Made by a program: the position numbers and the translations under genes. Below, piece after piece: positions 10,277 through 32,006 of a DNA stretch of 37,167 nucleotides (within the stretch, counting starts at the first letter, position 1; each line of letters begins with the position of its first letter). The notes under the pieces were generated by a model that saw only the letters and a list, made by a program, of their open reading frames with translations, was not told the DNA's origin and made no database searches. The stretch is from a virus, in the IMG/VR virus record IMGVR_UViG_3300043119_000437, positions 1 through 37,167 of that record. One strand, 5' to 3'.

Positions 10277-13045
10277 CTAGAGGATGTTGCTTCTGGTGAT
10301 GGGGCCGGCCAGTGGTGTCAGGTCGTAGACCTTGGTCACCGCTTCAGTCGCCAGGGCATTGGTGCCCATTTGCAGCGCCACCCAGGCGCTGCCGTTCCAG
10401 CGGGACAGCTTGTTGCCGTCGTCGCTGTCCAGCCACAGGTCGCCCACCGCCTCGGCCGTAGGCGCGCTGGTCGCCACAAAGGTCACCACTTTGCCGTCGG
10501 CCGTGGCCTGGGCATCGCTGGCCGCCAGCACCGCGGCGCCGATGCGCGTGTCGGCCGCCAGCGTCCAGCTGCCGCCCGCGGCCACGTACTGTTTGTTGCC
10601 GTCGTCGGTGTCGAACCACAGGTCACCGTTGTCGAACACCCCGGGCGGGGACGCCTGGTAGAAGCTGGCGATCTTGGCATCGGCCGCGGCCTGGGCCAGC
10701 AGCACATCGGCGGCAATGGTCTCGATGAGGTCGGCCGCCGTCACCGTGGCGGTGGCTGTTGCGGCGGTGTTGGACTGGTTGCCGCTGGTGTCGAAGTGCT
10801 TGACGTAGCGCGTCAGCGCCCCGGCGGCGGCCACCGGCTCCAGCCACTGCGATGCCGTGCCCACCCACAACGCCCCGCTGCCGCCCCAGCCGGTGTTGGC
10901 GCTGCGCACCTCGGTGTGGCTGTAGTCGGTCTCGGCCAGCGCCGCCCAGGTCCAGCGGATCTGGCCCTTGTTGACGGTGCCGGCAAACGATGACGGGCTG
11001 CCGGGTGCCGCCGTCTTGCCCACCACCACCCCGCCCACGTAGGCCCAGTTGCTGCGCACGCCCAGCGGGTTGCGCTGGCGCAGGCGCACCACCAGGGCCT
11101 GGCCATCGGGCACCGGGGCGATCCATGCCTCGGTGGTGCTGCCGGGCATGGGCGCCAGCTCCTGCCAGTCTTCACTGCCGCCCGCCGACCACTGCAGCTC
11201 GATGGCGCCGGCCTCGATCACGAACTGGTCGACGCTGGCCGGCCAGGTGATGTAGGCGCGGCTGATGATGGTGCCGTCAGCCTGCTTCCACAGCTGCGCC
11301 GTGCCGCTGGCCAGCGTGGGCGCGCCCAGCGCGGCCGGGCGGGTGTAGGGGCTGGGCAGGTCGGTGTCGGGCGCGGGGTCCACCACGGTGGCCTCGCCGT
11401 AGTTCCAGGCGTACACCGCCGATGCGGTCTCGCGCCAGGTGTAGGGCAGCGTGCCCTCGGGCGACCAGGTGCGGTCGATCACCTCGAACACCTTGCCGCT
11501 GCCCCAGCCGTAGCGCGGCAGGATCAGCAGCGTGGTGTCGGTGGGGGCGTAGTCGTAGGCGCGCAGGTTGGTGGTGGCCTGCACCGTCACCGCCTGGCGG
11601 CCACGCTCCAGCTCGATCTTGCCCAGCCGCTGGGCGCGCAGGGCGTCCATGGCGCCGGGCATGCTGATGTCGCGCACCACCTGCACGCCACCGTCCTGCG
11701 TCACGTAGGTGGCATTGGTGACCAACGGGGCCTGAACCTCGGCCCAGCCCTGGCTGGGGTCGCGGTACGTGACACGTACCGCATTGAACAGCGCACTGCG
11801 GCTGACCTTGGGCGTGACGGTCACGCCGCCATCGGCCAGATGGTCCTCGGTGATCTCGGCGCCAGCGCCGGGCGTGCGGTAGGCGCCTGGGCGCAGCAGC
11901 CAGCGGCCCTGCGTCCACACGCAGTGCCCAGCCATGCTGCTGAGCAGATCCTCCAGCACATCACGCGGGGCCTGGTCGGCGCCGAAGCTGCCGTTGTAGA
12001 TGTAGCGCTTCTGTGTTGTACCGCCCACATTCAGCGTCACGGTCTCGTCGCAGATGTTGGCCGCGGCAATCACCTCGGCCGATGGCACCTCGCCCGCACT
12101 GGCGCGCATGCCGTAGGTGGTGTCCTTCAGCCAGTCGGCGGTGATCAGCGCGGCGTTGTCGGTCCAGACCGTGGTGCCGGTGCGCGGGTCGGGCACCTTC
12201 TTGCCGCGCACCGTGCACAGGATGCGCGACAGGTCGAAGTTGGCGAACATCTCCGGGTCGAACTTCAGCATCACGTACAGGTAGCAGATGCCGGTGCCCT
12301 TGTGCGCCGTGGTCCACTTGCCGCCGCTGGCGGCCACCAGGTCGGCGTCGGCCGTCTGGCCGGCTGCGCCCAGGAACTTGCGGATGCGCACTTTTTGCGC
12401 GGGCGTGCCGTATTCATAGCCGACCGTCAGCGATTCGCCAGCGGGCAGGCCCGAGATGGTGGCCGACCCCGGCGTGTGCGTGCCGCCGTAACTAGCGCCG
12501 TCCACACTTTCGCTGGCAGCCCGGCTGATGTCGGTCACCTTGCTAGCCGCCTGCGGCAGCGTGATGGTGCCGCCGCCAGACACCGTGGCGTAGTGAGTGG
12601 CCCGATTCACGATGTCGGTGCCGAACGCGCCCGATGTGATCCAGCCGCTGCCGTCAGGCGCGGGCAGCAGCTCGTCGCCAAACCAGACCTCTTCGATGGC
12701 GTCGCATTCATGCGCGGCCAGAGCGATGATGGCGTGCAGGAATTCCTTCTTGGTGCCGGTGGACTGCGCGAACACCAGCACTCCGCCCACGCGGTCGCGC
12801 CCGTAGATCACGCGGCGCGGGGCCACGGCGCTGCGGAATGTGATCTCGCGGTCTTTGAGCGATGCGTTGTAGGCCGCGCGCGCCTTGGCCTTGGCGCGGC
12901 GCTGCATGGCTGCGCTGCCGGCAATGGTGGCCGCTGTCGCCGTGACGTAGGCGATCTGCGTGGCGTACATGATCAGGGTGGCGCCTGTCGTGCCCCCGAC
13001 AGCCGAGCCGATGGCGGCCAGTGCAGCGGTGAGCGGATCAACCAT
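10277..13045 (-). CDS. Tail-tip / host-specificity protein (J-like)
   Basis: I start it at ATG 13045 (MVDPLTAALAAIGSAVGGTT), giving 922 aa; the upstream open frame is a shadow of the NlpC-like gene. The N-terminal 100 residues include an Ala-rich hydrophobic segment, then a region typical of phage tip proteins (ITFRSAVAPRRVIYGRDRVG). The middle has J-like and fibronectin-type strands (RAYITWPASVDQFVIEAGAI). Near the C-terminus are two tandem units with the shared core GDLWFDTDDGNK and GDLWLDSDDGNK. Order after tape measure and three tip proteins is that of lambda M-L-K-J. It should form the tip and contact the receptor. Confidence 0.88.
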   Translation of the reverse strand: MVDPLTAALAAIGSAVGGTTGATLIMYATQIAYVTATAATIAGSAAMQRRAKAKARAAYNASLKDREITFRSAVAPRRVIYGRDRVGGVLVFAQSTGTKKEFLHAIIALAAHECDAIEEVWFGDELLPAPDGSGWITSGAFGTDIVNRATHYATVSGGGTITLPQAASKVTDISRAASESVDGASYGGTHTPGSATISGLPAGESLTVGYEYGTPAQKVRIRKFLGAAGQTADADLVAASGGKWTTAHKGTGICYLYVMLKFDPEMFANFDLSRILCTVRGKKVPDPRTGTTVWTDNAALITADWLKDTTYGMRASAGEVPSAEVIAAANICDETVTLNVGGTTQKRYIYNGSFGADQAPRDVLEDLLSSMAGHCVWTQGRWLLRPGAYRTPGAGAEITEDHLADGGVTVTPKVSRSALFNAVRVTYRDPSQGWAEVQAPLVTNATYVTQDGGVQVVRDISMPGAMDALRAQRLGKIELERGRQAVTVQATTNLRAYDYAPTDTTLLILPRYGWGSGKVFEVIDRTWSPEGTLPYTWRETASAVYAWNYGEATVVDPAPDTDLPSPYTRPAALGAPTLASGTAQLWKQADGTIISRAYITWPASVDQFVIEAGAIELQWSAGGSEDWQELAPMPGSTTEAWIAPVPDGQALVVRLRQRNPLGVRSNWAYVGGVVVGKTAAPGSPSSFAGTVNKGQIRWTWAALAETDYSHTEVRSANTGWGGSGALWVGTASQWLEPVAAAGALTRYVKHFDTSGNQSNTAATATATVTAADLIETIAADVLLAQAAADAKIASFYQASPPGVFDNGDLWFDTDDGNKQYVAAGGSWTLAADTRIGAAVLAASDAQATADGKVVTFVATSAPTAEAVGDLWLDSDDGNKLSRWNGSAWVALQMGTNALATEAVTKVYDLTPLAGPITRSNIL

Positions 13046-19273: not shown

Positions 19274-19498
19274 TCAGCCCGCCAGGTTGCGCGGTGGCGC
19301 CTTGGGGCGGGCCTTGGGCGGCGCCATGTCGGCCGCCGGCTGCACCGACACCTTGCCGGCGTTGGCCAGCTCGCGCGCCTGCTGGCGGTTGAGCTGCACC
19401 ACCTCGCCCACCTCCACCCGCAGGCCCGCCATGAAGATCGGGCGCAGCACGGTGTGCGGCTGGGTCTCGGGGCCGGGCTGGGGCAGTTGGTTGGCCAT
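19274..19498 (-). CDS. Small head-region protein, unknown
   Basis: I start it at ATG 19498, giving 74 aa. A short ordered middle (EVGEVVQLNRQQARELANAG) is flanked by Pro-rich ends. It lies between the capsid hairpin and the FII-like gene. Small proteins here can be connector or head-completion accessories (compare lambda FI), but the sequence does not settle it. Confidence 0.6.
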   Translation of the reverse strand: MANQLPQPGPETQPHTVLRPIFMAGLRVEVGEVVQLNRQQARELANAGKVSVQPAADMAPPKARPKAPPRNLAG

Positions 19499-19530
19499 GG
19501 TGGGCGCTGCGGGTGGGTGCGGGCGGGTGC

Positions 19531-19559
19531 GCCGGCCCCAGCGTTGTGCCGGGGCCGGC
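19531..19559 (-). terminator. Strong hairpin after the capsid gene
   Basis: GCCGGCCCC (19531-19539) and GGGGCCGGC (19551-19559) form a perfect 9-bp stem with an 11-base loop. It lies 8 bases past the capsid stop and ahead of the next gene. No T-tract follows on the minus strand, so this is a pausing, RNA-stabilising or partial-termination hairpin rather than a classic terminator. It would favour capsid over downstream expression. Confidence 0.7.
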
Positions 19560-19566
19560 TGGCCGA

Positions 19567-21483
19567 TCAGGTGATCGACGTGGCGCGGCTGAAGGCGGCG
19601 GCCTGGCGGATGCCAACGTCCACCGACTGCATGGCGCGGATGCCGGTGATGCCGGCGGCGAAGTTGGCGTAGGGGTTCATCGCCAGTTCCAACATGCCCC
19701 ACTCGGCGATCACCACCTGGCTGAAGTCACCGAACACCATCGACGCGGCAGTGACCTGCGTGGTGGTGGTGGCGCCAAAGCCGGCCATCTGGCCGTCCAG
19801 CACCGAGCCCGACCACAGCGGCGTGTCGGTGGACGCAAACCGCTGGCGCTGCATCAGCAGGCCGGCCACGGCCGGCGTGGTGACGTAGGCGCTGCCGGTC
19901 GACAGGGCATTGCCCGCGGCCACATCGGTCTGGAACTCGACCACGCCGGCGTAGGCCAGCGACGTGCCGGTGACCGAGCCGATGCCGGCCGTGGCGCTGA
20001 TGCCGGTGGGCTGGCCCGATGCGCCGCTGCCCTCCAGGCCGGCCAGGTCGATGGCCAGGCCGATGACCTTGGTCAGGTCGTTCATCACCAGCATGTCGGC
20101 CGCCGGGGTGCTTTGCAGCATCAGCAGGCGCGACAGCTCGGTGTAGGCACCGACCGTCTTGGGCGACATGGCCAGCTGGCCGATGGTCTGCTGGCTTTCG
20201 GTGATGGCGGTGGCTTCCGTCGCCAGCCAGTAGCCGGTGGCAGCGCCGGTCAGCTTGGGGATGGTGACCGAGCCGACCAGGCCGGGCAGCATGGTGGCGC
20301 CCAGGCGGGCCAGCACGCTGCGGGCGCGCAGCAGGTCGATGAACGACTGCGGCTGGATGTCGGTGCCGACCATGAACCCACCCGCCGTGGTGGTGCCCAC
20401 GGTCAGGTCGCGCTTGGCGGCCATCACGTCCAGCGGCACGTAGAAGCCGCCGTTGACCGCCTCGGCAATGCCGGCGCGCTTGCAGATGGCGTCCGAGCAT
20501 TCCTTCTCGAAGCCGGCCTGGCGCCAGTCGCGGTCGACCATGGCGCGGATGGCGCGCATCACGCTGAAGCGCTGCTGGTCCTTCTTGCTCAGGTCCAGGT
20601 TGGTGACCTGCGTGGTCTGCGCCGCGGTGATGGCGTTGGCCATCAGGTTGCGGAAGCCCTGCACCGACTCGCCAGACTCGATGGCGGCGGTGGCCTTGGC
20701 GGCGCCGTCGAAGCGGCTGAACTGGTCGCCAATGGCGCGGATCTCGGCAGCGCGCTGGCGCTCGGCCTTGATGACATCGGCGGCGGCCGGGGACAGGTTG
20801 AGCGCGGGCGCGGCCGGCTGCTCGATGGTGGTGGTGGTCATGGTGCGGGTCTCCGAAGGGGTGGAGGTGGTGGCGGGGGTGGCGGCGGGCATGGGTGCCA
20901 GCACGGCCTGGGGTGCGGGTTGGCGCGGGTCGTCTTCCGCGTTGCGGCCCACGCCCACGGAGGGGTCAGCGGGCACAGAGACCAGGGACACCTCGTAGGG
21001 CTCCCAGTCGGTCACGCGGTAGGTGTCGGCCTGGCTGTCGCCCTGGTTGGGGTCGCCCTCGACCTTGACCAGCTCAGCCTCATGGATGAGGTAGCCCACC
21101 GAGACGTTGCGGCGGATGCCATCCACCACGTCCTGGAAAACTTCCTCGGCGTCGGCGCTCTTCCCAAAGCGCACCACGGCACGGCACACCCGGTCGGCGC
21201 CAATGCTCACGGACTCGACCACGCCGATCTGCTCATCGGTGTCGTGGTTCCACAGCAGGGGTGCGCCGCTCATCAGGCGCGACAGGCGCACGGCGCGGGC
21301 GCTGCAGTCCAGCACCTCGACACCCCACCAGCGCTGGTAGGGCAGCTCACTGGCAAAGCTCAGCTCGACGGTACGGGCCTCGGCGTTGACCGCGGCGCGC
21401 TCGACGCTCAGGAACCGCTCGACCCGGGTGCCGGGGCGCAGCGCGGTCGCTGTTGCTGAGAGTTGGGCGGGGTTGCTGCTCAT
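19567..21483 (-). CDS. Fused prohead protease - HK97-type major capsid protein
   Basis: This is a 638-aa fusion. Residues 1-190 look like an HK97-family (U35) prohead protease, with His80 in LLWNHDTDEQIG and Ser128 in VSVGYLIHEAEL as catalytic candidates. A Pro/Thr-rich linker and a helical delta-like region (DVIKAERQRAAEIRAIGDQF) follow. The HK97-fold capsid section runs from about residue 330 (GGFYVPLDVMAAKRDLTVGT; later IPKLTGAATGYWLATEATAI) to the end. Such fusions are known in other phages. An internal Met215 (ATG 20841) has GGAG nine bases upstream and could give a separate capsid precursor of about 424 aa. The main ATG lacks a clear ribosome binding site. Confidence 0.93.
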   Translation of the reverse strand: MSSNPAQLSATATALRPGTRVERFLSVERAAVNAEARTVELSFASELPYQRWWGVEVLDCSARAVRLSRLMSGAPLLWNHDTDEQIGVVESVSIGADRVCRAVVRFGKSADAEEVFQDVVDGIRRNVSVGYLIHEAELVKVEGDPNQGDSQADTYRVTDWEPYEVSLVSVPADPSVGVGRNAEDDPRQPAPQAVLAPMPAATPATTSTPSETRTMTTTTIEQPAAPALNLSPAAADVIKAERQRAAEIRAIGDQFSRFDGAAKATAAIESGESVQGFRNLMANAITAAQTTQVTNLDLSKKDQQRFSVMRAIRAMVDRDWRQAGFEKECSDAICKRAGIAEAVNGGFYVPLDVMAAKRDLTVGTTTAGGFMVGTDIQPQSFIDLLRARSVLARLGATMLPGLVGSVTIPKLTGAATGYWLATEATAITESQQTIGQLAMSPKTVGAYTELSRLLMLQSTPAADMLVMNDLTKVIGLAIDLAGLEGSGASGQPTGISATAGIGSVTGTSLAYAGVVEFQTDVAAGNALSTGSAYVTTPAVAGLLMQRQRFASTDTPLWSGSVLDGQMAGFGATTTTQVTAASMVFGDFSQVVIAEWGMLELAMNPYANFAAGITGIRAMQSVDVGIRQAAAFSRATSIT

Positions 21484-21547: not shown

Positions 21548-21825
21548 CGGGTGCGCAGCGCCATGCGCCCCAGGCGCGCGTTGTCGGCGCCGGCCGGGCC
21601 GCGCAGCACGGCGCCGTAGTTGAAGCGGTCAGCGGCCACGGCCACCAGCGCATAGGCTTGCAGGTTGATGCTGGCGCTGCCGCTGATGCTGGCCAGCGCC
21701 GTGGCCTGGCCGCTGGCGGTGAACACGAAGGACGCGCTGCCCGCAAGCGTGGCGGGCGGGGCGGTGCCGGTGGCGCCGTACCACTGGCCAGCCCACTGGC
21801 CGGCGTAGCCGCCCGCCCAGGCCAT
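21538..21825 (-). CDS. Small virion-type protein with repeated beta motif
   Basis: This 95-aa protein starts at ATG 21825. The opening is Trp/Gly-rich (MAWAGGYAGQWAGQWYGATG). The middle (GSASFVFTASGQATALASIS, then GSASINLQ) resembles a segment of the neighbouring 262-aa protein (GAASFAINGNGNLLASLSAV, then GSASLSI). It ends in an Arg run. It is probably a small structural or decoration protein of the head. Its stop codon lies in the duplicated element. Confidence 0.6.
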   Translation of the reverse strand: MAWAGGYAGQWAGQWYGATGTAPPATLAGSASFVFTASGQATALASISGSASINLQAYALVAVAADRFNYGAVLRGPAGADNARLGRMALRTRRR

Positions 21826-21830
21826 GGCTG

Positions 21831-22619
21831 TCAGGCCCCGCCGTTCAGTGCGTCGATGGTGCGGTTGCCGGCGCTGTACGCGCCGTCAATGCGCACCGTG
21901 CTGCCGTCCAGCCCATAGAACTGCGGGTTGCCGCCCTCCAGCCCGGTGGCGGCGCCCGCCGCATGGGCGGCCACCAGGCGCAGGATCTGCTCGGCGCTGT
22001 AGCCGGCCTCGACCACCCTGGCCCACACCGCGCCGGCAATGGCGTCGGTCGTCAGCACGCCACCGTCGACGGTGCTGCCCTGCATGTTGCCCACGGCATA
22101 GGGCACCAGCGTGCCGCTGAACGTCATCGACGCCGCGGCCACCAGGTCGGCCTTGGCGCCCAGGATGGGCGTGTTGGTGGTGATGCTCAGGCTGGCCGAC
22201 CCCACCGCGCTGAGCGATGCCAGCAGGTTGCCGTTGCCGTTGATGGCGAACGATGCCGCGCCGCCGCCCGACGTGATCAGCCCGCCGGTCATGTCGGCCA
22301 CCGGGAACGACATGGTGGCCGTGCCGGTGGTGGTGACGCCGCGCAGGCCCGATGCGTCGGCGGTGAACGACATCACCATGTCGTTGCGGCTGCTCATCTC
22401 GCCGCTCTTCTGCGGCAGCATCCAGGTGCTGCCGGCATAGTTGCCGCTGGGGATGGCGTACAGCACCAGCGCGGTGGTGCGGCCGCTGACGTACAGGCTG
22501 TTGCGCGCCGCGCCGCTTTTCTGCCAGTTGCTGGGAACCTGCACCGCGGCCGATGTGGTGCTGCCACCAAAGAACCGGCCAGGCCCCTTGGTCAGCACCG
22601 AATAGTTGCCCAGCAGCAC
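21831..22619 (-). CDS. Virion structural protein, unknown
   Basis: The start is GTG 22619, just after the previous stop, giving 262 aa. The first half is beta-rich, with repeated G-x-A-S/T-x-S/T patterns. The C-terminal 75 residues carry a module seen in many phage structural proteins: LTTDAIAGAVWARVVEAGYS, AEQILRLVAAHAAGAATG, then STVRIDGAYSAGNRTIDALN. It lies between portal and capsid genes. A head or connector surface role is likely. Confidence 0.65.
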   Translation of the reverse strand: MLLGNYSVLTKGPGRFFGGSTTSAAVQVPSNWQKSGAARNSLYVSGRTTALVLYAIPSGNYAGSTWMLPQKSGEMSSRNDMVMSFTADASGLRGVTTTGTATMSFPVADMTGGLITSGGGAASFAINGNGNLLASLSAVGSASLSITTNTPILGAKADLVAAASMTFSGTLVPYAVGNMQGSTVDGGVLTTDAIAGAVWARVVEAGYSAEQILRLVAAHAAGAATGLEGGNPQFYGLDGSTVRIDGAYSAGNRTIDALNGGA

Positions 22620-22620
22620 A

Positions 22621-23742
22621 TCAGCCCCAGAGGAAGTCGAGGTTGCCGTAGAAGGCGCTGTTGACCGGCGTGGCCGCGCCGGCGTACATCAGCCATTGCA
22701 GGTTGGCGCCGTCGAACACACGCGGCAGGCTGGGCAGCTGGTTGAGCAGGTCACGCTCAGCGGCCACGCCCACGGTGGTGATGGGTAGCGTCAGCAGCGG
22801 GCGGCACAGCACCAGGTTCATGCAGCCGCTGGTCATGGTGGCGCTGAAGTTGACCGACTGCACCGACAGGATGCCCGCATCCCCCGCGGCCAGCGGCAGG
22901 AACGGCCCGTACTTGCCCACGCCGGTGCCGCTGTAGGGGATGGCCCCCACCGGCGACGTGGCATTGATGATGGGCAGCGACGGCGCGGCCGGTGTCAGCC
23001 GGCCCGCCACGCTGGCGGTGTTGGTGTAACTGAGCTGCACCGTGGGCGTGCCGGCGCCCATCACCACGCTGGGCACCAGGTAGGCGCGCAGGCCCTTGCC
23101 GTCAGCGTAGCGCGGCAGCGTCTGCGTGCCCAGCAGGGTCTGGGCGCCGGTGGTCGTCACCGTGCTGATGGGGAACACGGCCACCTGGTCAATCAGCATC
23201 AGCACGGCCGGCGCGGTGGTGGCCGCGGCGCTGAACGCCGACACGTTGGCGATGTGCTTCACATCCGTGCTGACGTTGCCGCCGTGGTCGATGCCGTTGG
23301 GCGTCTGCGTGCCGGTGATGGTCTGCGCCGTCACCGTCTGGCTGATGTTGACGGTGTAGGTGCCGCCGTTGTTGGCGCCGGTGCCGGTGCCCAGCGCGGT
23401 GATGTAGGTGCCGGCGGCCACGCCGGTGCCGGTCAGCAGCGTGCCCACGGTGAAGCGCCCCGAGCCATGCGTGGTGTCGGTGAACGTGGTGGTGGCGATG
23501 CTGCCGCCCAGCGCGGCCGTGGCGGCGCTGATGCTGGTGGAATCACTCAGCGCCTGGAAGGTCAGGTTGGTGCCGGCGCCGATCACGCTGGACTGGATGG
23601 GGTTGCCGCCGCCGGTGCTGAGGTCGTACCACAAGCCGGCGGCCTGCGCGGTGGCGGGCAAGGTGTTCTTGTTGAAGTCGCTGCGGAAGAACTTGCCGCC
23701 AGACAGTGACGCGATGATGGCGTCCATGGATTGGATGGGCAT
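22621..23742 (-). CDS. Virion structural protein, paralog 1 (with insertion)
   Basis: This 373-aa protein is homologous along its length to the 287-aa protein encoded next to it. Shared blocks include AGLWYDLS / [19 protein letters not shown] / [24 protein letters not shown] / [13 protein letters not shown] and [10 protein letters not shown] / [10 protein letters not shown]. It differs by an insert of about 80 residues (about 70-148) containing [19 protein letters not shown] and [12 protein letters not shown], a motif found repeatedly in phage surface proteins. It is probably a head-associated structural protein made by gene duplication. Confidence 0.75.
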
Positions 23743-23746
23743 GGCG

Positions 23747-24610
23747 TCAGCTCCAGATGGTGGTGATCGTGCCGTGCAGCGGTGCGCCGGCCAGCGTGCC
23801 GTTGGGGCAGGCGATCAGGTTCAGGTAGGCGTCATCCTCGATGACGGGCAAGTCCAGGAAGTCGGTGAACGGGATGCGTTCAGCCGGTGCGTCGATGGTG
23901 CGGATGGCCAGGTTTTCCACCGCCTTGACCAGCACGAAGCTGATCAGCCCCACATCGCCAGTCAGGAAGGTCACCGCGTCGATGCTGCGCACGCCACGGT
24001 CGCCAGCCTGCAGCGGCAGGAAAGGCCCCGCACTGTCGGCGGTGTTGGGCGCGCTGGTGATGATGGTGCCGTTGACCACCTGGGTGTTGCACGCCACCGT
24101 GGGCGTGATGCGACCGGCCACGCCGTCGCTGTTGGTGTAGCGCACCCGGAACTTCGGGTTGCCGATGCCCGACTGGCCAGCCACTTCCACCGGCAGGATC
24201 TCGACGCCCAGGCCGGTGGTGCTGCGCGGCAGCGTGACGGTGTTGTCCATCACCTGCTCATCGGTGACCGACATATCTACGAACGGGTAGTACAGCAGGT
24301 AGTCGCACAGGATCATCGGCAGCGGCACGGCGGTGGCCGTCACCGTCATGGCGGTGATCTGCTTCAGGTGCTTTTTGAGCGGCGCCACCGCGCCACCGTG
24401 CGGAATGCCGCCATCGGTGGACTGCCGCATCGCGATGGCGATGTTGGGGCTGGCGGCGTAGTAGTTGGGCGTGGGGTTGCCTGGCGACATTGACAGGTCG
24501 AACCAGATGCCCGCGCCGGTGGTCTGCGTGGGCGTTTTGCGCCAGGTGCTGAACCAGAAACGGCCGTCATTCTCGGCCGCCACCAGGTCGCGGACGTTGC
24601 GCAGCGCCAT
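23747..24610 (-). CDS. Virion structural protein, paralog 2
   Basis: This 287-aa protein starts [20 protein letters not shown] and lacks the insert found in its tandem paralog. The rest aligns block by block. The C-terminal part ([20 protein letters not shown]) corresponds to the less conserved end of the paralog. The pair sits between the portal-side 134-aa protein and the capsid gene, so both are likely head or connector proteins. Lower similarity at the C-terminus suggests the two have diverged in function. Confidence 0.75.
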
Positions 24611-24612
24611 GC

Positions 24613-25017
24613 TCAGTCAGCAGCAACCGACAGCGCGGCGGCTGAGAACTGCGGCTGGATGCCCGACGACACGTTCAGCGTGGACGACAGCGCGCCGCTG
24701 ATCATCAGCGCCACGGCGCCCGATGCGGTGTCGACCACGGCAAAGTGGGTCAGCGCGTTGCTGCCGGCCGTGCAGGCGCCGAACTGGATGAGCGCGGCGT
24801 TGGTGAAGGTGCTGCCGCTGTCCGTCCAGGCGCTGGCCTTGGTGAGTGGCACGCGGGCATAGCCGGTGTAGTTGGCCTCGGCGGCCAGGCTGGCGGCCTC
24901 GCCGGGGTCGGCGGTGAACAGCGCCAGGTACTGCGTGGCGCCGGCCCGGTAGCTGGGGTCGGTGCCCTGCAGAAACATCTTCAGCGCGGCATTTTCGGTG
25001 GTGTTGCTCAAGCTCAT
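24613..25017 (-). CDS. Small virion structural protein
   Basis: This 134-aa protein has the typical run NALTHF-type and YLALFTADPGEAASLAAEAN, TGYARVPLTKASAWTDSGS of a widespread phage structural family sometimes labelled tail fiber or minor capsid protein. The first helix (TTENAALKMFLQGTDPSYRA) and the beta-rich remainder fit. It follows the portal gene. The exact virion site is unknown. Confidence 0.72.
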   Translation of the reverse strand: MSLSNTTENAALKMFLQGTDPSYRAGATQYLALFTADPGEAASLAAEANYTGYARVPLTKASAWTDSGSTFTNAALIQFGACTAGSNALTHFAVVDTASGAVALMISGALSSTLNVSSGIQPQFSAAALSVAAD

Positions 25018-25029
25018 GGTGCGGCCTCG

Positions 25030-26592
25030 TCAGGTGGTGCCGGCCGCAGCTGCGGCGGGCGTGGGTCGGGCTGGTTTGGGCGCCAGGCCAGCGCGCTGGC
25101 GGGCCTGCTCGGCCTGCTTCAGCTCTTCCAGCAGGTCTTCATAGTCGCGGCCCAGCTTGGCGGCCACGCGCTGCGGGCTTTGCAGCTCGGCGCCGATGGC
25201 GGCGATGTCGGCCTCGATGTCGCGCAGCGGGTCCACCCACTCCCACCGGCGGCCCTGCCACAGGTGCTTGGCGAACTTGTCGCGCTTGGCCAGCGGCAGG
25301 GTGCTGCCATTGGGCAGTGTGATCTGGCCGAAGGCCAGCGCGCTGCCGATCCACTCGCGGTAGATGGGGCGCAGCACGCCGTCGATGAACGACTGCTGCA
25401 ACATCATCCACTGGTCGCGCTCTTCCAGCGTGCCGCTGCGGATGCTGGAAAAGCTGACGCCCTCCAGGTCGTTGGCCAGCGCGTGGTAGGCCACGCCCAG
25501 GCCGCTGGCGATGCCGCGCAGGTTGGCCTTGCAGAATTCCCCGAACATCGCCGCCGGGTAGTCGGGGTTGAAGGGCGTGAAGGTGGTGCCAGGCGGCAGG
25601 CTGCCGAAGCTGCCCGCCTCGGCCTCGGTGTACAGCTCGCCGCTGCCGTCGCCCACGCTGTCGCTGTCGGCCAGGGTCGACAGGTCGGCGCCATCGGGGC
25701 CGGTGAAGAACCCCATCTTGCTGGCGCCCACGCGGCTGGCCACGATGGCGGCCTCTTCATAGCCGCCCAGGTTGTTGAGCCGCAGCATGGCCGCATGCAT
25801 CCACGGCACGCCGCGGAACTGCTCGGGCCGGTCGGCCACGAAGTAGTGCACCACGTCCTCAGCCGGCACGCGCACATGGGTGTTGCCGCGCAGGTCACCG
25901 GCGGCCTGGTACACCTCGCCCGGGTGGCGGTTCTTCAGCCACAGGGCCAGCGGGCGGCCAAAGGCTGACACCTCCACGCCCATGCGGATCTGGCCGTAGC
26001 CCAGCTCGGCCGGGCGGTTGAGCGCGGTGTCGATGCGGTCGACATCGAGCAGCTGCAGCGACAGGCCGAATCGGTTGCCGCTGTCGGCGCCGCGCACGAA
26101 GCGGATCAGGCATTCGCCATCCCGCGCCACGGTCAGCTCGGCGGTGCGGCAGATGCCGGCAAAGGTGCTGCGGCCGGCGGCGTCGGCCACCTCGCACCAG
26201 TCGGCGTGGGCGGCCTCGATGGCGGCATTGGCCAGGGTGTCGGGCGTGCCGCTGGGGTCATAGCAGCGGGCCTGCAACTGGAAGCCGGCCGCGCCGACCA
26301 CGTTGGTGGCCACCAGGTTGCCGAACTTCTTGGCGTAGGGGTCATCGCGGAACAGTTGGCGGCTGCGGGCGCGCAGGTTGTCCAGGCTGGCATGGATGTC
26401 GGCGTTGGCCGACAGGCTGGTGGTGGTCCAGCCCTCGGTCAGCCGGTTGACCTGGGCGGCGGCATAGCTGCGGCGCTGCGGGCGGGCGGCCGGCGCAGGC
26501 GCGGCGCCTGCCCAGCCGGCCAGCGCCTGGCCGATGCGCTGCATCGTGCCTGCCAGGCCGGCGCGCTTGGGTGCGTTGGTGGGTTGCTGCAT
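25030..26592 (-). CDS. Portal protein (lambda gpB family)
   Basis: This 520-aa protein has the family features of the lambda portal: an N-terminal RSYAAAQVNRLTEGW segment, the conserved LRARSRQLFRDDPYAKKFGN, the VVGAAGFQLQAR stretch, HYFVADRPEQFRGVPWMHAA, and a late SFSSIRSGTLEERDQW. It forms the dodecameric ring at one head vertex through which DNA enters and leaves. The C-terminal 60 residues are helical and Ala/Pro-rich. ATG 26592 follows a stop by a few bases. Confidence 0.93.
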   Translation of the reverse strand: MQQPTNAPKRAGLAGTMQRIGQALAGWAGAAPAPAARPQRRSYAAAQVNRLTEGWTTTSLSANADIHASLDNLRARSRQLFRDDPYAKKFGNLVATNVVGAAGFQLQARCYDPSGTPDTLANAAIEAAHADWCEVADAAGRSTFAGICRTAELTVARDGECLIRFVRGADSGNRFGLSLQLLDVDRIDTALNRPAELGYGQIRMGVEVSAFGRPLALWLKNRHPGEVYQAAGDLRGNTHVRVPAEDVVHYFVADRPEQFRGVPWMHAAMLRLNNLGGYEEAAIVASRVGASKMGFFTGPDGADLSTLADSDSVGDGSGELYTEAEAGSFGSLPPGTTFTPFNPDYPAAMFGEFCKANLRGIASGLGVAYHALANDLEGVSFSSIRSGTLEERDQWMMLQQSFIDGVLRPIYREWIGSALAFGQITLPNGSTLPLAKRDKFAKHLWQGRRWEWVDPLRDIEADIAAIGAELQSPQRVAAKLGRDYEDLLEELKQAEQARQRAGLAPKPARPTPAAAAAGTT

Positions 26593-26600
26593 GCGGTGCC

Positions 26601-27149
26601 TCAGCGCACGAAGCGCACCAGGAGCTTGTTGCGTGATGCCAGGCCCTGGCGCAGGCGGTCAGCGGCGTCTTCACGCGACACCTCGGCGCGCAGGCGGCTG
26701 ATGAAGGCCAGGAAGTCGCCCGGGCTGGTGAAGGTCTGCTTGCGGTCGCCCATCTCGATGCCCTGCAGGTAGGCGCGGGCGCCGTGGGTGGCCAGCGCGG
26801 CCTCGGCCGCCTCCAGCGCCTTGCGGTAGTTGCTGCGGGTGTCCAGCGTGGTGGCGGCGGCCAGGTCGGGCAGCACCTGCACGGCGCCGGTGGCCAGCGT
26901 GGTGCGGGCGCCGGCCAGCGTGGCGTCGACCGACCAGCTGTAGCTGCCGGCGGCCCAGGCGGCGGTGGTGGCGGCCGGCACGGTCAGCGTGTAGTCGGTG
27001 CCGCTGCCGCTGGCCGTGGCCTGGTAGCGGGCGCCGCTGTTGATCAGCGTGAGCCGTACCGCCCAGCCGGCCGCGGCCGGGTAGTCAGGCAACGACCAGG
27101 TGGCCGTCAGCGTGTCACCGGCGCGGAGGGTGGGGGGCAGAGTCGTCAT
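26601..27149 (-). CDS. Head-tail connector, Ig-like domain fused to gpW-like domain
   Basis: I start it at ATG 27149 (MTTLPPTLRAGDTLTATWSL), giving 182 aa. Residues 1-105 look like an Ig-type beta domain (YPAAAGWAVRLTLINSGARY, then SYSWSVDATLAGA). Residues about 115-182 look like gpW (ALEAAEAALATHGARAYLQG, then TFTSPGDFLAFISRLRAE). The place directly before the portal is where gpW lies in lambda. The extra Ig-like domain may decorate the connector or mount it to another protein. Confidence 0.72.
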   Translation of the reverse strand: MTTLPPTLRAGDTLTATWSLPDYPAAAGWAVRLTLINSGARYQATASGSGTDYTLTVPAATTAAWAAGSYSWSVDATLAGARTTLATGAVQVLPDLAAATTLDTRSNYRKALEAAEAALATHGARAYLQGIEMGDRKQTFTSPGDFLAFISRLRAEVSREDAADRLRQGLASRNKLLVRFVR

Positions 27150-27165
27150 GGGCACCGGCGCGGCA

Positions 27166-27363
27166 TCAGGGTGCCGGCTTGCGGCACAGCACCGCCGCAT
27201 CGGCCAGATCGACCAGCGAAGCCACGCCCAGCGGCCCATACATCGAGCTGACGATGGCGCGCTGGCCGTCTGCCGTGCAGCTGACGCGGTTGGCGAAAGT
27301 CGTGGACAGCGAGCCGCAGCCGGACAGGCCGATGGCGGCGCAGAGGATCAACAGGGGTTTCAT
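27166..27363 (-). CDS. Small lipoprotein (65 aa)
   Basis: I start it at ATG 27363, or at GTG 27372. The opening MKPLLILCAAIGLSGCGSLS is a signal peptide with lipobox LSGC, so the mature protein should be lipid-anchored from Cys16. The rest has Cys residues (VSCTADGQ, AVLCRKP) that could form a disulfide. It lies between the depolymerase and the gpW-like gene, an odd place for an envelope protein. It could be a superinfection-exclusion or receptor-blocking lipoprotein, which is only inference. Confidence 0.65.
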   Translation of the reverse strand: MKPLLILCAAIGLSGCGSLSTTFANRVSCTADGQRAIVSSMYGPLGVASLVDLADAAVLCRKPAP

Positions 27364-27387
27364 GGGGTGCACCGGCAGGGGATGGGA

Positions 27388-29475
27388 TCAGACCATCGGC
27401 GGGTTGGACTTGTAGGCATGTCCACCCGGCAGCGCGCTCTCGTTGCCGTACTTCCACGCCATGTACCCGTGCAGGAAGTCCTCTTGCCCGACAGTGGCCG
27501 CGCCCGACATCACCACCAGCTCGGAGAACGCGCCCAGGCAGTAGCTGCCGACCACGTTGGACCCGCCAGCGTTGCCGCCAATGACGCGCCGCGTAAACGT
27601 CGCAACGGGCATGCTCACGTTGTTTGCGCTGGCTGTACCGCCGTTGACGCTGCCCCGGCATGCTGCGGTTGCCCCAGCGCCGAAGCTGACCACGATGGAC
27701 GCATCCAGGCCGCTGATGGCCGGGCCGGCGTAGCCGCCAGTTGATCCGATGCGCAGGTTGCCGCCGTTGAAACCGATGGCCCGCGTTGATGCGCCTGCGT
27801 CCGACTCGCTCAGCATGTAGGTGAACGCGCCGCTGGCAGGGTCGGTGTAGTACTGCATGGCGTAGGTGATCGCAGCCTGCGATCCCGGCGTGCCGGTCAG
27901 GTCGGTCTGGATGGCCGCGTCACCACCGTCAAACGATGCACGCGGGATGCCGGCTGCCGTGATGCCGTAGGTAGGCCGCAGGCTGGCCGATGACGGCGTT
28001 GCACTGCGGGTGTTGCTGATCGGCGTCAGTGCCTTGATGGCGTTGATGTGCCGGATCACGCTGCCGTGGAAGTCCAGCGCGAACCAATCCACCAGGGCGC
28101 CCGCCAGTTCTACGGGCGTCCACAGCCGGCCGGATTGCCACGTCAGCACGATGGATCGCGTGGTTGTCTGCCCGCGCTCGTCGTATGCCTTGACCGTGAT
28201 GCGCCGCGTGCCACTCAGTTGCGGCTCGGCAATGATGGTGGCGCCCGATACGGTCACGCCGCCAGTGTTGCCGCTGATGATTTCCAGCTTGACCAGCGGC
28301 TTGTTGGCATGAATCTCACCGATCAGGCGCCGCCCTGGCAGCGCGCTGATTCCCCAGGTGTCAAGAACCACCGGCCCAAAGTTGCGCACGAAAGCCTGCG
28401 CCGCAGTGGGCCATTGATCGCCCGACAGCTTGCACTGAAAAATGCCGTTGTTCTGGTCCCAATACGAATGAAACTCCACTTCTTCGGTGCGGATGAAGTC
28501 GGCCATTCGCTCGATGAACAGCGGGTTCTCATAGTCCAGGCCCCACTCTGCAAGGCCAAACCGCTTGCCCCTGGCGCAGGCAAAGTCGCGCATCGGCAGC
28601 AGGCCACCAACGCTGGAGAACATGAATTCGGCGTGTTCCTGATTCGTCATCGCCCCTTTGTCATCGTCCAGGCAGTAAACATCCGGCGTGATGATGTCAA
28701 CCACATCGTCGCCGGGGTAACGGTCCTGCCAGGAATAGGCGCCATCCAGACGGAAGGCCGGGCAGTAGCCAATGCGAATTCGCGTATCGACAGAGCGCAG
28801 CAGCAGCGCGACATGCCTGAATGCCGCGATGTAGTTTGCCGGCACTGCGCCATCGAGCGTTGCCCCCCAAGGAAACGAAGTGGAAAAGTTCTGCTCCCAG
28901 CCGGGCCGGATGTCGATGTATCGCGCACCGGCAGGCGCTGCCGCCACGATGGCGCGGGCCATGTCCAGAATCACTGCGTTGTGCGTTCCGGCCAGCGTTT
29001 GCGCGATTGGCTCGGCAGTGGTGCAGATCGGGAAGGCCCATTTCTGCTCCACGTTCAGGCCAGCGAAGCGGGCCACCACAACGTCGATCCAGGCTCGGCA
29101 TGCGGCCCAGGTGGGGCCTCCGTTGGTTTCCGCTGCGAACTGGATGACATGCGTGAACCCGCTGCCCCCCAGCCATGTGTTTTGCGCAACTCGGGTGGCG
29201 TTGTCGGCCGCACGCACGCCGCAATCAAACAGCGGCATCAGCGCCCTGGCGGTGTTGGCATTCCAAGCACTTGACACCAGGGATGTGCCAGCCGTCGTCG
29301 CCTCGGGGCTCCAGCTGGTTACGGCCGGCATCAGCGCACGGTCGGTGTCGGTGGCGTAGCCGGCGCCCACCATGGCCGCGCCGAAGGCGTTCGACACGGT
29401 GTTGGTTGTGCCAGCCGCCAGCACACTGCCGGATTCACCCAGTCGGGCCTGGATCATCGTGATGCGCATGGTCAT
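27388..29475 (-). CDS. GH26-like glycoside hydrolase with Ig-like and lectin domains (virion depolymerase)
   Basis: This is a 695-aa, three-part protein. The N-terminus (RLGESGSVLAAGTTNTVSNA) looks like a short virion-anchor motif. Residues about 95-370 resemble a GH26/clan GH-A TIM barrel: DIRPGWEQN with Glu194, the barrel segment RYPGDDVVDIITPDVYCLDD, and FGLAEWGLD with Glu310 as acid/base and nucleophile candidates. Residues 385-450 look Ig-like (KPLVKLEIISGNTGGVTVSG). The C-terminus resembles a concanavalin/LamG lectin and ends in the typical FLHGYMAWKYG. It probably cuts or binds host surface polysaccharide. It lies between terminase and portal, inside the head module, and is less GC-rich than its neighbours, which suggests acquisition. 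Confidence 0.8.
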   Translation of the reverse strand: MTMRITMIQARLGESGSVLAAGTTNTVSNAFGAAMVGAGYATDTDRALMPAVTSWSPEATTAGTSLVSSAWNANTARALMPLFDCGVRAADNATRVAQNTWLGGSGFTHVIQFAAETNGGPTWAACRAWIDVVVARFAGLNVEQKWAFPICTTAEPIAQTLAGTHNAVILDMARAIVAAAPAGARYIDIRPGWEQNFSTSFPWGATLDGAVPANYIAAFRHVALLLRSVDTRIRIGYCPAFRLDGAYSWQDRYPGDDVVDIITPDVYCLDDDKGAMTNQEHAEFMFSSVGGLLPMRDFACARGKRFGLAEWGLDYENPLFIERMADFIRTEEVEFHSYWDQNNGIFQCKLSGDQWPTAAQAFVRNFGPVVLDTWGISALPGRRLIGEIHANKPLVKLEIISGNTGGVTVSGATIIAEPQLSGTRRITVKAYDERGQTTTRSIVLTWQSGRLWTPVELAGALVDWFALDFHGSVIRHINAIKALTPISNTRSATPSSASLRPTYGITAAGIPRASFDGGDAAIQTDLTGTPGSQAAITYAMQYYTDPASGAFTYMLSESDAGASTRAIGFNGGNLRIGSTGGYAGPAISGLDASIVVSFGAGATAACRGSVNGGTASANNVSMPVATFTRRVIGGNAGGSNVVGSYCLGAFSELVVMSGAATVGQEDFLHGYMAWKYGNESALPGGHAYKSNPPMV

Positions 29476-29540: not shown

Positions 29541-29577
29541 ATCAGGGGGAAATCTGCGACAGCAGATCAGCGGGGCC
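29541..29577 (-). repeat. Duplicated intergenic element, copy B
   Basis: ATCAGGGGGAAA, two bases, TGCGACAG, CAGA, TCAGCGG, one base, GCC: the same blocks as at 21515-21547. The TCA is the reverse of the stop codon of the Mor-like gene. The minus strand also reads ATCTGC-TGTC-GCAGAT here, a perfect 6-bp hairpin that is not kept in copy A. Confidence 0.85.
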
Positions 29578-29842
29578 GCTTCAGGGGCTTGGCCAGGATG
29601 CGGTACGCGGTGGCGCGGTGGCACTTCTCGGCCTGCACGGCCTGGCTGATGCTGCTACCCTGCTGCAGGGCCTGGCCCATGCGCACGCCACGCGCCAGCG
29701 CGGGCCGCTTGGCCACGTAGCCGAACTCGCAGCCGCCCAGCTGGCCGCGCAGGTGCACCTCGGCGGTCTGGCGCCGCTCGGGCGTCAGCTCGGGCACCAC
29801 CTGCTGCATCAGTTCCAGCACTCGATCCAGCGCGTCGGCCAT
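29567..29842 (-). CDS. Mor-like HTH transcription factor
   Basis: I start it at ATG 29842, with GAGG five bases upstream (GTG 29848 is the other option), giving 91 aa. The first half (ALDRVLELMQQVVPELTPER) and the second half (SISQAVQAEKCHRATAYRIL) fit the Mor/C layout: a dimerisation part, then an HTH. Mor-type proteins activate middle or late promoters. Here the gene lies between terminase and depolymerase. A target could be the neighbouring duplicated element or the late promoter, but that is a guess. Confidence 0.65.
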   Translation of the reverse strand: MADALDRVLELMQQVVPELTPERRQTAEVHLRGQLGGCEFGYVAKRPALARGVRMGQALQQGSSISQAVQAEKCHRATAYRILAKPLKRPR

Positions 29843-29849
29843 CCACACC

Positions 29850-32006
29850 TCACCACTTGGTCACCCATCCGGCCCGCTTGGGCCGGCGCATTGGCGGGCG
29901 CGGCTGCGCCCTGCTGTCTGGCTGCGGGGTGGCGGGCGTGGCCTTGTGGGTGGCCGGGTCGGCTTGGGCCTGGGTGGCTGCCGGTGGTGGTGGGTTGCCC
30001 TGCTGCTGGCGAGCGGTGGCCGGTGCGTCGGCAGACTGGTCTGCGTCAGCGTCGGCCGCCTCCGATTGCGCGACGGCATCCATTGTCGCTGCCGGCGTGT
30101 CAAGGGTCAACCCCAGCAGGTCGGCCTGGCGCAGGCGGTTTTCGTACCGCTGCCAGTGGGCGTCGGTGTGGCGCGGCACGCCGATGTGCCAGGCCGCGGC
30201 CATGGCGTAGACCGCGCAGTCCAGCGCCTCGTTGCGCCGGCCGGCGGGCTTGACCCAATCACGCCGGGCGTGGCCCTTGATGTAGCGGGTGACCACGCGC
30301 TCGGCGGTGAGCTGCTCCCACACGTAGCTGGGCAGCGCGGCGCAGGTGTGCACGTAGCCGGGGCCGGCCTCCTGCACCTGCATGCGCCCGTACAGCAGGC
30401 CCTTGGCGGTGTCGGTGCCCACCAGCCACAACTGGCCGCCGTTCTTGATGCGCTTGCCGTGGTGGTTGAACTCGATGGCCGTGGGCTTGGCGATGATGGC
30501 CCGGCCCGGCATGCTGCTGCCCTTGACGGCCAGCACATGCTCACCGGCGTGGCGCCTGGCGTAGCGGTACACCATGTCGGTGTGGTGGCCGCCTGAGTCC
30601 ACCGCCGTGGCGGTGATGGTGATGGCCGCGCCGCTGGCGTGCTGCAGCGCCAGCCGGCGCCAGTCGGTCAGCGCGGCCCAGGGGCTGCCGGGCTCGGTCT
30701 CGGGCAGGCTGGGGTCGCCGTACAGCACCACATGGTCGACCAGCCAGGATTCTTCACCCCGGCCCCAGGCCCAGGCATACGCCTCCAGCCGGTCGCCCTG
30801 GGTGTCGACGCCGGCCGTGACCACCAGCGCGCCGTGGGGCACGGTGCGCAGCGGGTACGCCTCGGCCCGGCGGCGCAGGGCATGCTCGTCGGCCTTGTCG
30901 CCCTGCTCCTGGAAGGTCTCGGCCAGCCGGGTGTTGATGAACACGCGCAGCAGGCTGGTGTCGCCGGTGCGGGCCTTGTCGATGGCCTTGTGCCATTCAT
31001 CGGCCAGCTGCGCCCAGCTCAGCCAGCCCAGCGGGGCGTACAGGCTGGACAGGTGAAAGCTGCGCACCCGCCCGCCCTGGGCGCCAGGCGCATCGGCCAC
31101 CCAGGCGCCGGCCGGCAGCATGGTGGCCTTGTGGTGTTCGCGGATCTCGCAGCCGTTGGCGGCGCACAAGTACCGCACGCTGTCGCGGTCGGGCTGGCCA
31201 TCGGGCAGGCGGTCCCACTTGACGCCGTGGGGCTTGTCGGCGCCCCACTCCAGCACCTGGCGGGTGCCGCAGTGCGGGCACGGCACCTGGTAGCGGCAGC
31301 GGTCGGCCGCGTTGAAGCTGTCTTCGATGCGGCTGGCGTCTTTGGTGGTGGGCGTGCTGGTGCGCAGGCGCTTGCGGCGGCTGAAGGTGGACTGCCGCGC
31401 CTCGGCCAGCGTGCAGGGGTCACCCTCGCCGTCGACATCGAGCGGGTAGCCGTCCACCTCGTCCAGGAACAGGTCACGCACCGGCATGGACCGCAGGCCC
31501 GCGGCGCTGTTGGCGCCGGCCACGGCCAGGAACCCGCCGGCAAACTCCTTCAGCAGCGTGGTGTTGGCGTCGTCGCGGCTGCGGTTCTCGCGCACCTTGC
31601 GGCGCAGCGTGGGGCTTTCCTCGAGCATGGGCGCCACGCGCTGGCGGCTGTAGCGCTTGGCCATGTCGATGGTGGGCTGCACGATCATCACCGGGCCGGG
31701 GTTGGTGTCGATCAGGTAGCCCAGCCAGTTGCTGCCCACGCGCGTCTTGCCGGTCTGCGCGCCCCACATCAGCACCACTTCCTCGACGGCGCTGTGCTGG
31801 CTCAGGCAGTCCATCGGCTCGATGGCGTACGGCGTGCGGGCCGCCCGGTAGGGGCCGGGCTCGGCGCTGTCTTTGGCCGACAGGATGATGCTGCGCTCGG
31901 CCCAGGCGCTGACGGTCTGGATGATGGGCGGGCGGGCGAACTCGCGCAGGACCGCCCACACGCGGGCATCGGCGTCGATGTTGGTTATGCCGTCGCGCGC
32001 TCCCAT
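29850..32006 (-). CDS. Terminase large subunit (GpA family)
   Basis: This 718-aa protein has Walker A GAQTGKT (residues 82-88), Walker B LFLDEVD (179-185) and a zinc-ribbon pair CPHC (243-246) with later C281 and C286, as in lambda gpA. The C-terminal 450 residues contain the nuclease section (VVTAGVDTQGDRLEAYAWAW; ITATAVDSGGHHTDMVYRYA) with Asp clusters. A low-complexity Pro/Gln/Ala tail closes it. It packages DNA into the prohead and cuts the concatemer. GpA-type enzymes usually cut at cos sites, so a cos end mechanism is likely. Confidence 0.95.
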   Translation of the reverse strand: MGARDGITNIDADARVWAVLREFARPPIIQTVSAWAERSIILSAKDSAEPGPYRAARTPYAIEPMDCLSQHSAVEEVVLMWGAQTGKTRVGSNWLGYLIDTNPGPVMIVQPTIDMAKRYSRQRVAPMLEESPTLRRKVRENRSRDDANTTLLKEFAGGFLAVAGANSAAGLRSMPVRDLFLDEVDGYPLDVDGEGDPCTLAEARQSTFSRRKRLRTSTPTTKDASRIEDSFNAADRCRYQVPCPHCGTRQVLEWGADKPHGVKWDRLPDGQPDRDSVRYLCAANGCEIREHHKATMLPAGAWVADAPGAQGGRVRSFHLSSLYAPLGWLSWAQLADEWHKAIDKARTGDTSLLRVFINTRLAETFQEQGDKADEHALRRRAEAYPLRTVPHGALVVTAGVDTQGDRLEAYAWAWGRGEESWLVDHVVLYGDPSLPETEPGSPWAALTDWRRLALQHASGAAITITATAVDSGGHHTDMVYRYARRHAGEHVLAVKGSSMPGRAIIAKPTAIEFNHHGKRIKNGGQLWLVGTDTAKGLLYGRMQVQEAGPGYVHTCAALPSYVWEQLTAERVVTRYIKGHARRDWVKPAGRRNEALDCAVYAMAAAWHIGVPRHTDAHWQRYENRLRQADLLGLTLDTPAATMDAVAQSEAADADADQSADAPATARQQQGNPPPPAATQAQADPATHKATPATPQPDSRAQPRPPMRRPKRAGWVTKW

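Follow-up and report, generated by a model that had tools for sequence, protein, structure and literature searches.

The host-coat specificity of tailed phages is normally inferred from their tail fibres and spikes. The archaeal tailed virus HFTV1 carries glycan-directed domains on its head as well: its capsid-borne turret combines carbohydrate-binding and deacetylase-like domains, for which binding and modification of host glycans ahead of tail attachment were proposed, and its authors reported no homologues in other haloarchaeal viruses (PMC12494034). In the literature on head-borne glycan enzymes, HFTV1 was the only case found. Exchange of sugar-active segments is known from cryoconite phages, whose near-identical backbones carry exchanged host-recognition and GDSL or glycoside-hydrolase segments, according to excerpts of PMC7468147. 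Here we analysed a stretch of viral DNA of 37,167 nucleotides (IMG/VR record IMGVR_UViG_3300043119_000437; hereafter the window), in which a large enzyme-like open reading frame (ORF) lies among the head genes. Our preferred reading, to which we assign a probability of roughly 0.58, is that the ORF encodes a putative capsid-tethered, exchangeable appendage that degrades or binds polysaccharides at the phage head.

The ORF (27388–29475, minus strand) is intact, starts with ATG and encodes 695 amino acids; a 100% identical copy is present on an independent viral contig (L001). Its host is an uncultured temperate lambda-like siphophage. The head cluster runs in the order TerS, TerL, a 93-aa HTH-like protein, the GH26 ORF, a 65-aa lipoprotein, the head-tail joining protein, the portal, a gp80-like protein and others, and a fused protease-capsid protein, followed by the tail terminator, major tail protein, tape measure, distal tail protein (Dit), J-type central fibre and integrase. 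An initial annotation, made from the window alone, had placed the ORF in the head module away from the tail fibres; indeed, it lies between the TerL and HTH-like genes on one side and the joining and portal genes on the other. The lower GC noted there was also borne out: GC in the cassette is 0.62–0.69 vs 0.70–0.74 in neighbouring genes, and the ORF is among the lowest 8 of 702 windows of the same length. A longer ATG start of the joining protein, at 27239, would fall within the cassette. None of 50,697 phage records matched the 695-aa protein, and scans of genome contigs found no relative.

Table 1 Features of the enzyme locus and its surroundings in the window.
Feature	Position	Strand	Basis or remark
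Terminase large subunit gpA	29850..32006	-	Pfam
93-aa HTH-like protein, conserved backbone gene after TerL	29567..29848	-	
Putative docking module (anchor), residues 1–50	29326..29475	-	DNA shared with L002, AF2, post-capsid relation
Linker past swap point, residues 51–100	29176..29325	-	pLDDT 35–41; no DNA match to L002
GH26-type TIM barrel, residues 101–370	28366..29175	-	Profile, AF2, Foldseek, invariant Glu
Glu194 codon, predicted acid/base	28894..28896	-	Aligns with CtLic26 HEANG motif; invariant in 16 homologues
Glu310 codon, predicted nucleophile	28546..28548	-	Column is Q in 2cip, E in other CtLic26 entries; invariant
Ig-like domain, residues 371–447	28135..28365	-	About seven strands, pLDDT about 75 (AF2); conserved in L166
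Likely ConA/LamG-like lectin domain, residues 448–695	27391..28134	-	Phage-family homology, Foldseek
Whole exchanged cassette	27160..29325	-	blastn match stops at 29326, restarts at 27159; polysaccharide deacetylase cargo in L002 instead
65-aa lipoprotein, LSGC lipobox, passenger of the same cassette	27166..27363	-	Absent from L002
Head-tail joining protein	26601..27155	-	phrog_5774, 4.6e-31; Ig-like N-terminus, gpW-like C-terminus (by eye)
Portal, lambda family	25030..26592	-	Pfam, 3.9e-95
Second exchanged cassette, portal-capsid interval	21549..25048	-	Unshared with L002, flanks 97–98% identical
Stand-alone anchor homologue, post-capsid DUF7210/phrog_2616 domain	19274..19492	-	

By full-domain homology and a predicted (β/α)8 barrel, residues 101–370 are assigned to glycoside hydrolase family 26 (GH26). 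On its own, the 695-aa sequence matched Pfam GH26 below threshold (13.5 bits, E 0.048). Streptomyces 'glycosyl hydrolases' found by tblastn clear the Pfam GH26 cut-off and align collinearly with the window protein over residues 101–366 (E 7e-18), and a scan with this alignment recovered about 20 phage loci with relatives. With a 16-member profile, CtLic26 was matched at E 6e-29, and the E-values for mannanases were about 1e-17 to 1e-23; nearly all of the 42 PDB sequences that the profile detected below 1e-4 were GH26. These matches agree with the GH-A clan, GH26-like barrel recognized by the initial annotation. Structure prediction and comparison with GH26 enzymes, which it had proposed as a check, returned a TIM barrel (AF2 pLDDT mostly 85–97 over about residues 200–340 and lower in the first barrel strands), and Foldseek ranked GH26 lichenases first among PDB folds (E 5.5e-11, probability 1.00).

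The proposed catalytic pair, Glu194 as acid/base and Glu310 as nucleophile, was assigned by alignment columns (the family's catalytic glutamates lie on strands 4 and 7) and matched the catalytic columns of GH26. Both residues (E194 in GWEQN, E310 in AEWG) are invariant in 16 of 16 homologues; 2cip, with glutamine in the E310 column, is a Michaelis-complex entry. A homologue in a different phage (L166), 54–55% identical over the whole enzyme-Ig-lectin part, retains both glutamates, and the codon-position differences between the two (0.36/0.31/0.68) fit purifying selection. Hydrolysis would be of the retaining type, and the substrate may be a beta-glucan or beta-mannan-like polymer. GH26-like domains were also seen on other large phage proteins with varied N-termini or FN3-like segments (L081, L091, L094 and L095), and virion enzymes of the GH26-like kind therefore seem to be common among uncultured phages.

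Behind the barrel, the Ig-like segment and the LamG-type lectin end named in the initial annotation were both recovered. The former is an all-β domain at about residues 371–447, for which Pfam Big_9 (E 0.21) is a hint at most. Residues 448–695 likely belong to the ConA/LamG class. They are part of a large phage family with the terminal motif GYLAWKWGLxxxLPxxHPYK, in which one of 16 lectin homologues reaches Laminin_G_3 in Pfam (E 2e-4), the window domain itself having no Pfam match. The low-confidence model of this domain (pLDDT 59) gave Foldseek matches to ConA-like folds and a CBM40.

What had been described as a virion-type N-terminal motif proved to be a conserved module, residues 1–50, joined to an exchangeable enzymatic C-terminus. 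AF2 modelled the module as β-β-α-β, with pLDDT about 82 to residue 30 and 65–70 beyond. In L002, which belongs to a 47.8-kb contig whose head cluster is nearly identical, the anchor is 98% identical in protein sequence; the DNA of L002 is 96.6% identical to the window from TerL to position 29326 (codon 50), diverges abruptly there, and matches again from 27159 at 97.1% through the joining and portal genes. The intervening cargo of L002 is a polysaccharide deacetylase (PF01522, E 1.3e-5), and the lipoprotein is missing. Six contigs of a second phage type likewise show 96.8–99.9% identity across no less than 2.2 kb of upstream sequence and on through codons 47–72, after which they continue into unrelated cargoes: deacetylase-like (L006/L070), a GDSL hydrolase (L007, Pfam 8.9e-16) and proteins with no Pfam name (L008, L009 and L010). 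In distant relatives the cargo is GDSL-type (L018, L066 and, weakly, L017) or LamG-like with no Pfam match (L067), and in L015 the docking module stands alone (78 aa). L017 (contig IMGVR_UViG_2643221867) has the look of a prophage from an isolate genome. The anchor is seen on at least seven different cargoes. L166, in turn, carries the same GH26-Ig-lectin cargo behind an unrelated N-terminus, beside the head-closure Hc3 gene. Cargo swapped on one module, together with the same cargo on another N-terminus, indicates that both halves are exchangeable modules, and the point of exchange falls within the reading frame, at a fixed boundary between domains. L014 (5590–7227) has yet another layout, in which a 100-aa stand-alone docking module precedes a separate SGNH-like ORF that begins with a different N-terminus of repeat type.

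The initial annotation read the ORF and the lipoprotein gene as a two-gene insertion. The GH26 part and the lipoprotein gene are indeed exchanged together, but codons 1–50 are conserved backbone; the supposed insertion is therefore one allele of a swapped cassette. As that annotation also had it, the lipoprotein accompanies the enzyme: its gene lies in the same swapped segment and is present in the GH26 allele only. The lipoprotein had no match among phage records, and a Cor-like exclusion function (phrog_1119, E 0.07) was discarded as noise. Simple repeat-mediated insertion of the cassette was considered, and no convincing flanking repeats were found around it. The anchor had no match in the 50,697 phage records or in the PDB; weak DUF7302 matches to anchors (E 0.04) were set aside.

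Wherever the gene context was readable, genes carrying the anchor belong to the head cluster, and searches for the anchor gave one match per genome, none of them among tail genes. The description 'between terminase and portal' is correct for the window but not as the sole site: the gene occupies the interval from TerL and the HTH-like gene to the joining gene in the window and L002, whereas it directly follows the portal in most relatives. Both junctions are closed in VP882 and Alexa, with adjacent genes overlapping or nearly so, which represents the empty state of both slots. In L071 (2708–4150) and L072 (3310–4755), phages with the anchor gene behind the portal, large variable proteins occupy the TerL-to-joining gap, which looks like an exchange of contents between the two slots.

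A second exchanged cassette of the window encodes a gp80-like protein (PF23140, 1.2e-21) and proteins of 287, 373, 262 and 95 aa, among which the 287-aa and 373-aa proteins are paralogues (33% identity). L002 has other genes at this site, including one for a glycine-rich protein of 444 aa. The gp80-like protein had no sequence match in the PDB, so its GP4 name gives no location. In the J-type fibre gene (window 10277–10773), about the last 500 nt fall outside the alignment with the contig of L002, and the 165 codons at the C-terminal end seem to form another variable segment.

Profile comparison indicated a distant relationship between the anchor and the small protein whose gene directly follows that of the capsid. 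No family matches the anchor firmly; the best of the weak matches is to phrog_2616, which in the window hits two places, the ORF directly after the capsid gene and the anchor of the GH26 ORF. The post-capsid DUF7210 domain is found throughout these phage relatives, and its HMM detected the L067 lectin protein's anchor with an E-value of 8.5e-10. In hhalign, anchors aligned with the post-capsid family at 93.6% when intermediates were included (column-shuffled controls at most 0.4%) and window-type anchors alone at 52%, so that the link runs through the intermediates L066 and L067. In these two genomes the next gene after the stand-alone post-capsid copy is the anchored cargo gene, an adjacency that suggests duplication. 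The post-capsid family had no PDB match.

The stand-alone gene occupies the position of lambda gpFI (capsid, FI, Hc1). Anchor and post-capsid proteins share with gpFI a small β domain and the pattern ...G....y.vs...A.eLv..g.A in the same register. Against a three-member gpFI alignment, hhalign gave 50% for the merged anchor and post-capsid families (controls at most 0.33%), 12% for anchors alone and about 1% for window-type anchors, and HMMER found no match to the gpFI family PF14000; a relation of the merged families to gpFI is suggestive only. Lambda gpFI differs in that its N-terminus is helical and SAP-like and that it carries no enzyme cargo; it serves as a packaging chaperone, and a gpFI-like fold therefore need not imply stable attachment in the mature virion. 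As stated in an excerpt of PMC7889075, gpFI acts through the major head protein. The likeness of the anchor to a protein in the post-capsid, gpFI position lends independent support to head mounting.

Two observations concern the post-capsid proteins themselves. At 19274–19702 of the window, the DUF7210-like domain is encoded in a different frame from the capsid gene, whose end it overlaps, and might be a frameshift extension of the capsid, by analogy with proposals for TP901-1 and Listeria phages; for the gpFI equivalent of TP901-1, frameshift joining to capsids was proposed and blots did not confirm it, according to an excerpt of PMC4493119. The post-capsid proteins of Persinger (L228, 3653–3964) and Alexa (L229, 8948–9238) consist of a β domain followed by a C-terminal Rho_N/SAP-like domain, an order reversed relative to lambda gpFI, where the SAP-like part is N-terminal and the β part C-terminal.

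We propose that the appendage consists of the 50-residue docking module, the GH26-type glycoside hydrolase, an Ig-like spacer and the C-terminal lectin. A lambda-like gene order allows a prediction, not a proof, of where a protein is located; gene position and distant homology together suggest attachment to the capsid. The docking module, a presumed diverged copy of the small post-capsid protein, would most likely fix the enzyme outside the phage head, on the shell or at the portal vertex, during assembly. Near a cell, the lectin would hold and the barrel would cut polysaccharide of the host coat or of a biofilm matrix, while the J-type fibre on the tail finds the real receptor. Recombination just downstream of codon 50 would exchange the cargo, and one phage backbone could thereby be matched to different host coats.

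The same exchangeable enzyme could instead sit at the neck, on the portal or head-tail joining ring, as a collar fibre resembling the GP4 fibres of podophages. Anchored genes adjoin the joining and portal genes, and in L166 the same cargo appears beside Hc3 in a different phage. The adjacent second cassette encodes the gp80-like protein named for GP4 fibre I, which makes neck attachment a serious rival. We nonetheless consider it unlikely: the detectable relatives of the anchor are post-capsid proteins rather than neck or fibre proteins, and in the searches run the anchor showed no similarity to the gp80-like protein. A depolymerase of the tail tip or baseplate, encoded in the head cluster by chance, would fit the statement, in an excerpt of PMC12494034, that most known virion depolymerases are tailspikes or fibres. 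It is much less probable, given that the head-cluster position is kept in at least 10 relatives with differing flanks, that the tail cluster already has Dit and a J-type central fibre, and that the anchor has no copy among the tail genes.

Only marginally better are the odds of a non-virion moron, which with its lipoprotein partner would serve lysogenic conversion, superinfection exclusion or the release of progeny from a matrix. The integrase of a temperate phage, the low GC, the lipoprotein in the same cassette and the variability of the two-gene block all suit such a role. Yet no promoter or terminator signal of its own was seen at the cassette, and the N-terminus, with no evident signal peptide, is the conserved module common to all cargoes. 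The in-frame exchange at a fixed domain border also resembles that of receptor-binding proteins, and the other alleles do without the lipoprotein. The least probable alternative, and a very improbable one, keeps the protein on the capsid with an inactive barrel that binds polysaccharide only. Binding-only Ig or lectin decorations of capsids do exist, as excerpts on T4 Hoc describe (PMC10385173, PMC12494034), but here both glutamates and their surrounding motifs show no variation among the homologues, even at the 54% identity of L166, and the sibling alleles are likewise enzymes.

A head-mounted, exchangeable appendage thus remains our preferred reading. The occurrence of different sugar-active enzymes on one module in near-identical phages suggests that phages may retool their heads, beyond their tail fibres, and so pass the coats of different bacteria. 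More tentatively, at odds somewhat short of even, a capsid-binding domain derived from the post-capsid protein may be a general head socket of bacterial siphophages for interchangeable GH26, deacetylase, GDSL/SGNH and lectin-only cargoes, with the head, not the tail, as the fast-evolving surface for coat penetration. If the head carries an exchangeable docked enzyme, host-range prediction overlooks a determinant whenever it leaves the head cluster out. Head-borne glycan enzymes like that of HFTV1 would then extend to ordinary bacterial siphophages, and natural alleles of near-identical phages would make the role of capsid decorations in adsorption testable.

Each part of the locus has described counterparts. 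The barrel resembles CtLic26 and other GH26 enzymes (lichenase, mannanases) in fold, catalytic glutamates, YPGD(D/N) motif and full-length profile match; its acid/base motif reads W-E-x-N where GH26 usually has H-E. Those enzymes are bacterial and secreted or cellulosomal, whereas the window enzyme is a phage protein with a docking module and a lectin. Phage tailspike and tail-fibre depolymerases, such as the deacetylase fibres of Possum and Aristophanes, likewise join a conserved virion-binding N-terminus to an exchangeable enzyme C-terminus of the same enzyme classes; their anchors bind tails, whereas the anchor here is related to post-capsid proteins and is encoded by head-cluster genes. 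The exchanges in the cryoconite phages concern mainly tail-fibre ORFs, and the excerpts of PMC7468147 describe no head-docking module.

The nearest precedent for a head-borne enzyme is the HFTV1 turret. The deacetylase alleles of L002 and L006 gave no sequence match to the HFTV1 turret entries in the PDB. The order of parts in the gp31 turret head of HFTV1 is nevertheless comparable to that of the L002 allele, with a short N-terminal anchor, a middle region and a deacetylase. In HFTV1 the turret base is a separate protein and the stalk is trimeric; and while no allele exchange has been described for HFTV1, the cargo here is swapped between near-identical phages, GH26 included.
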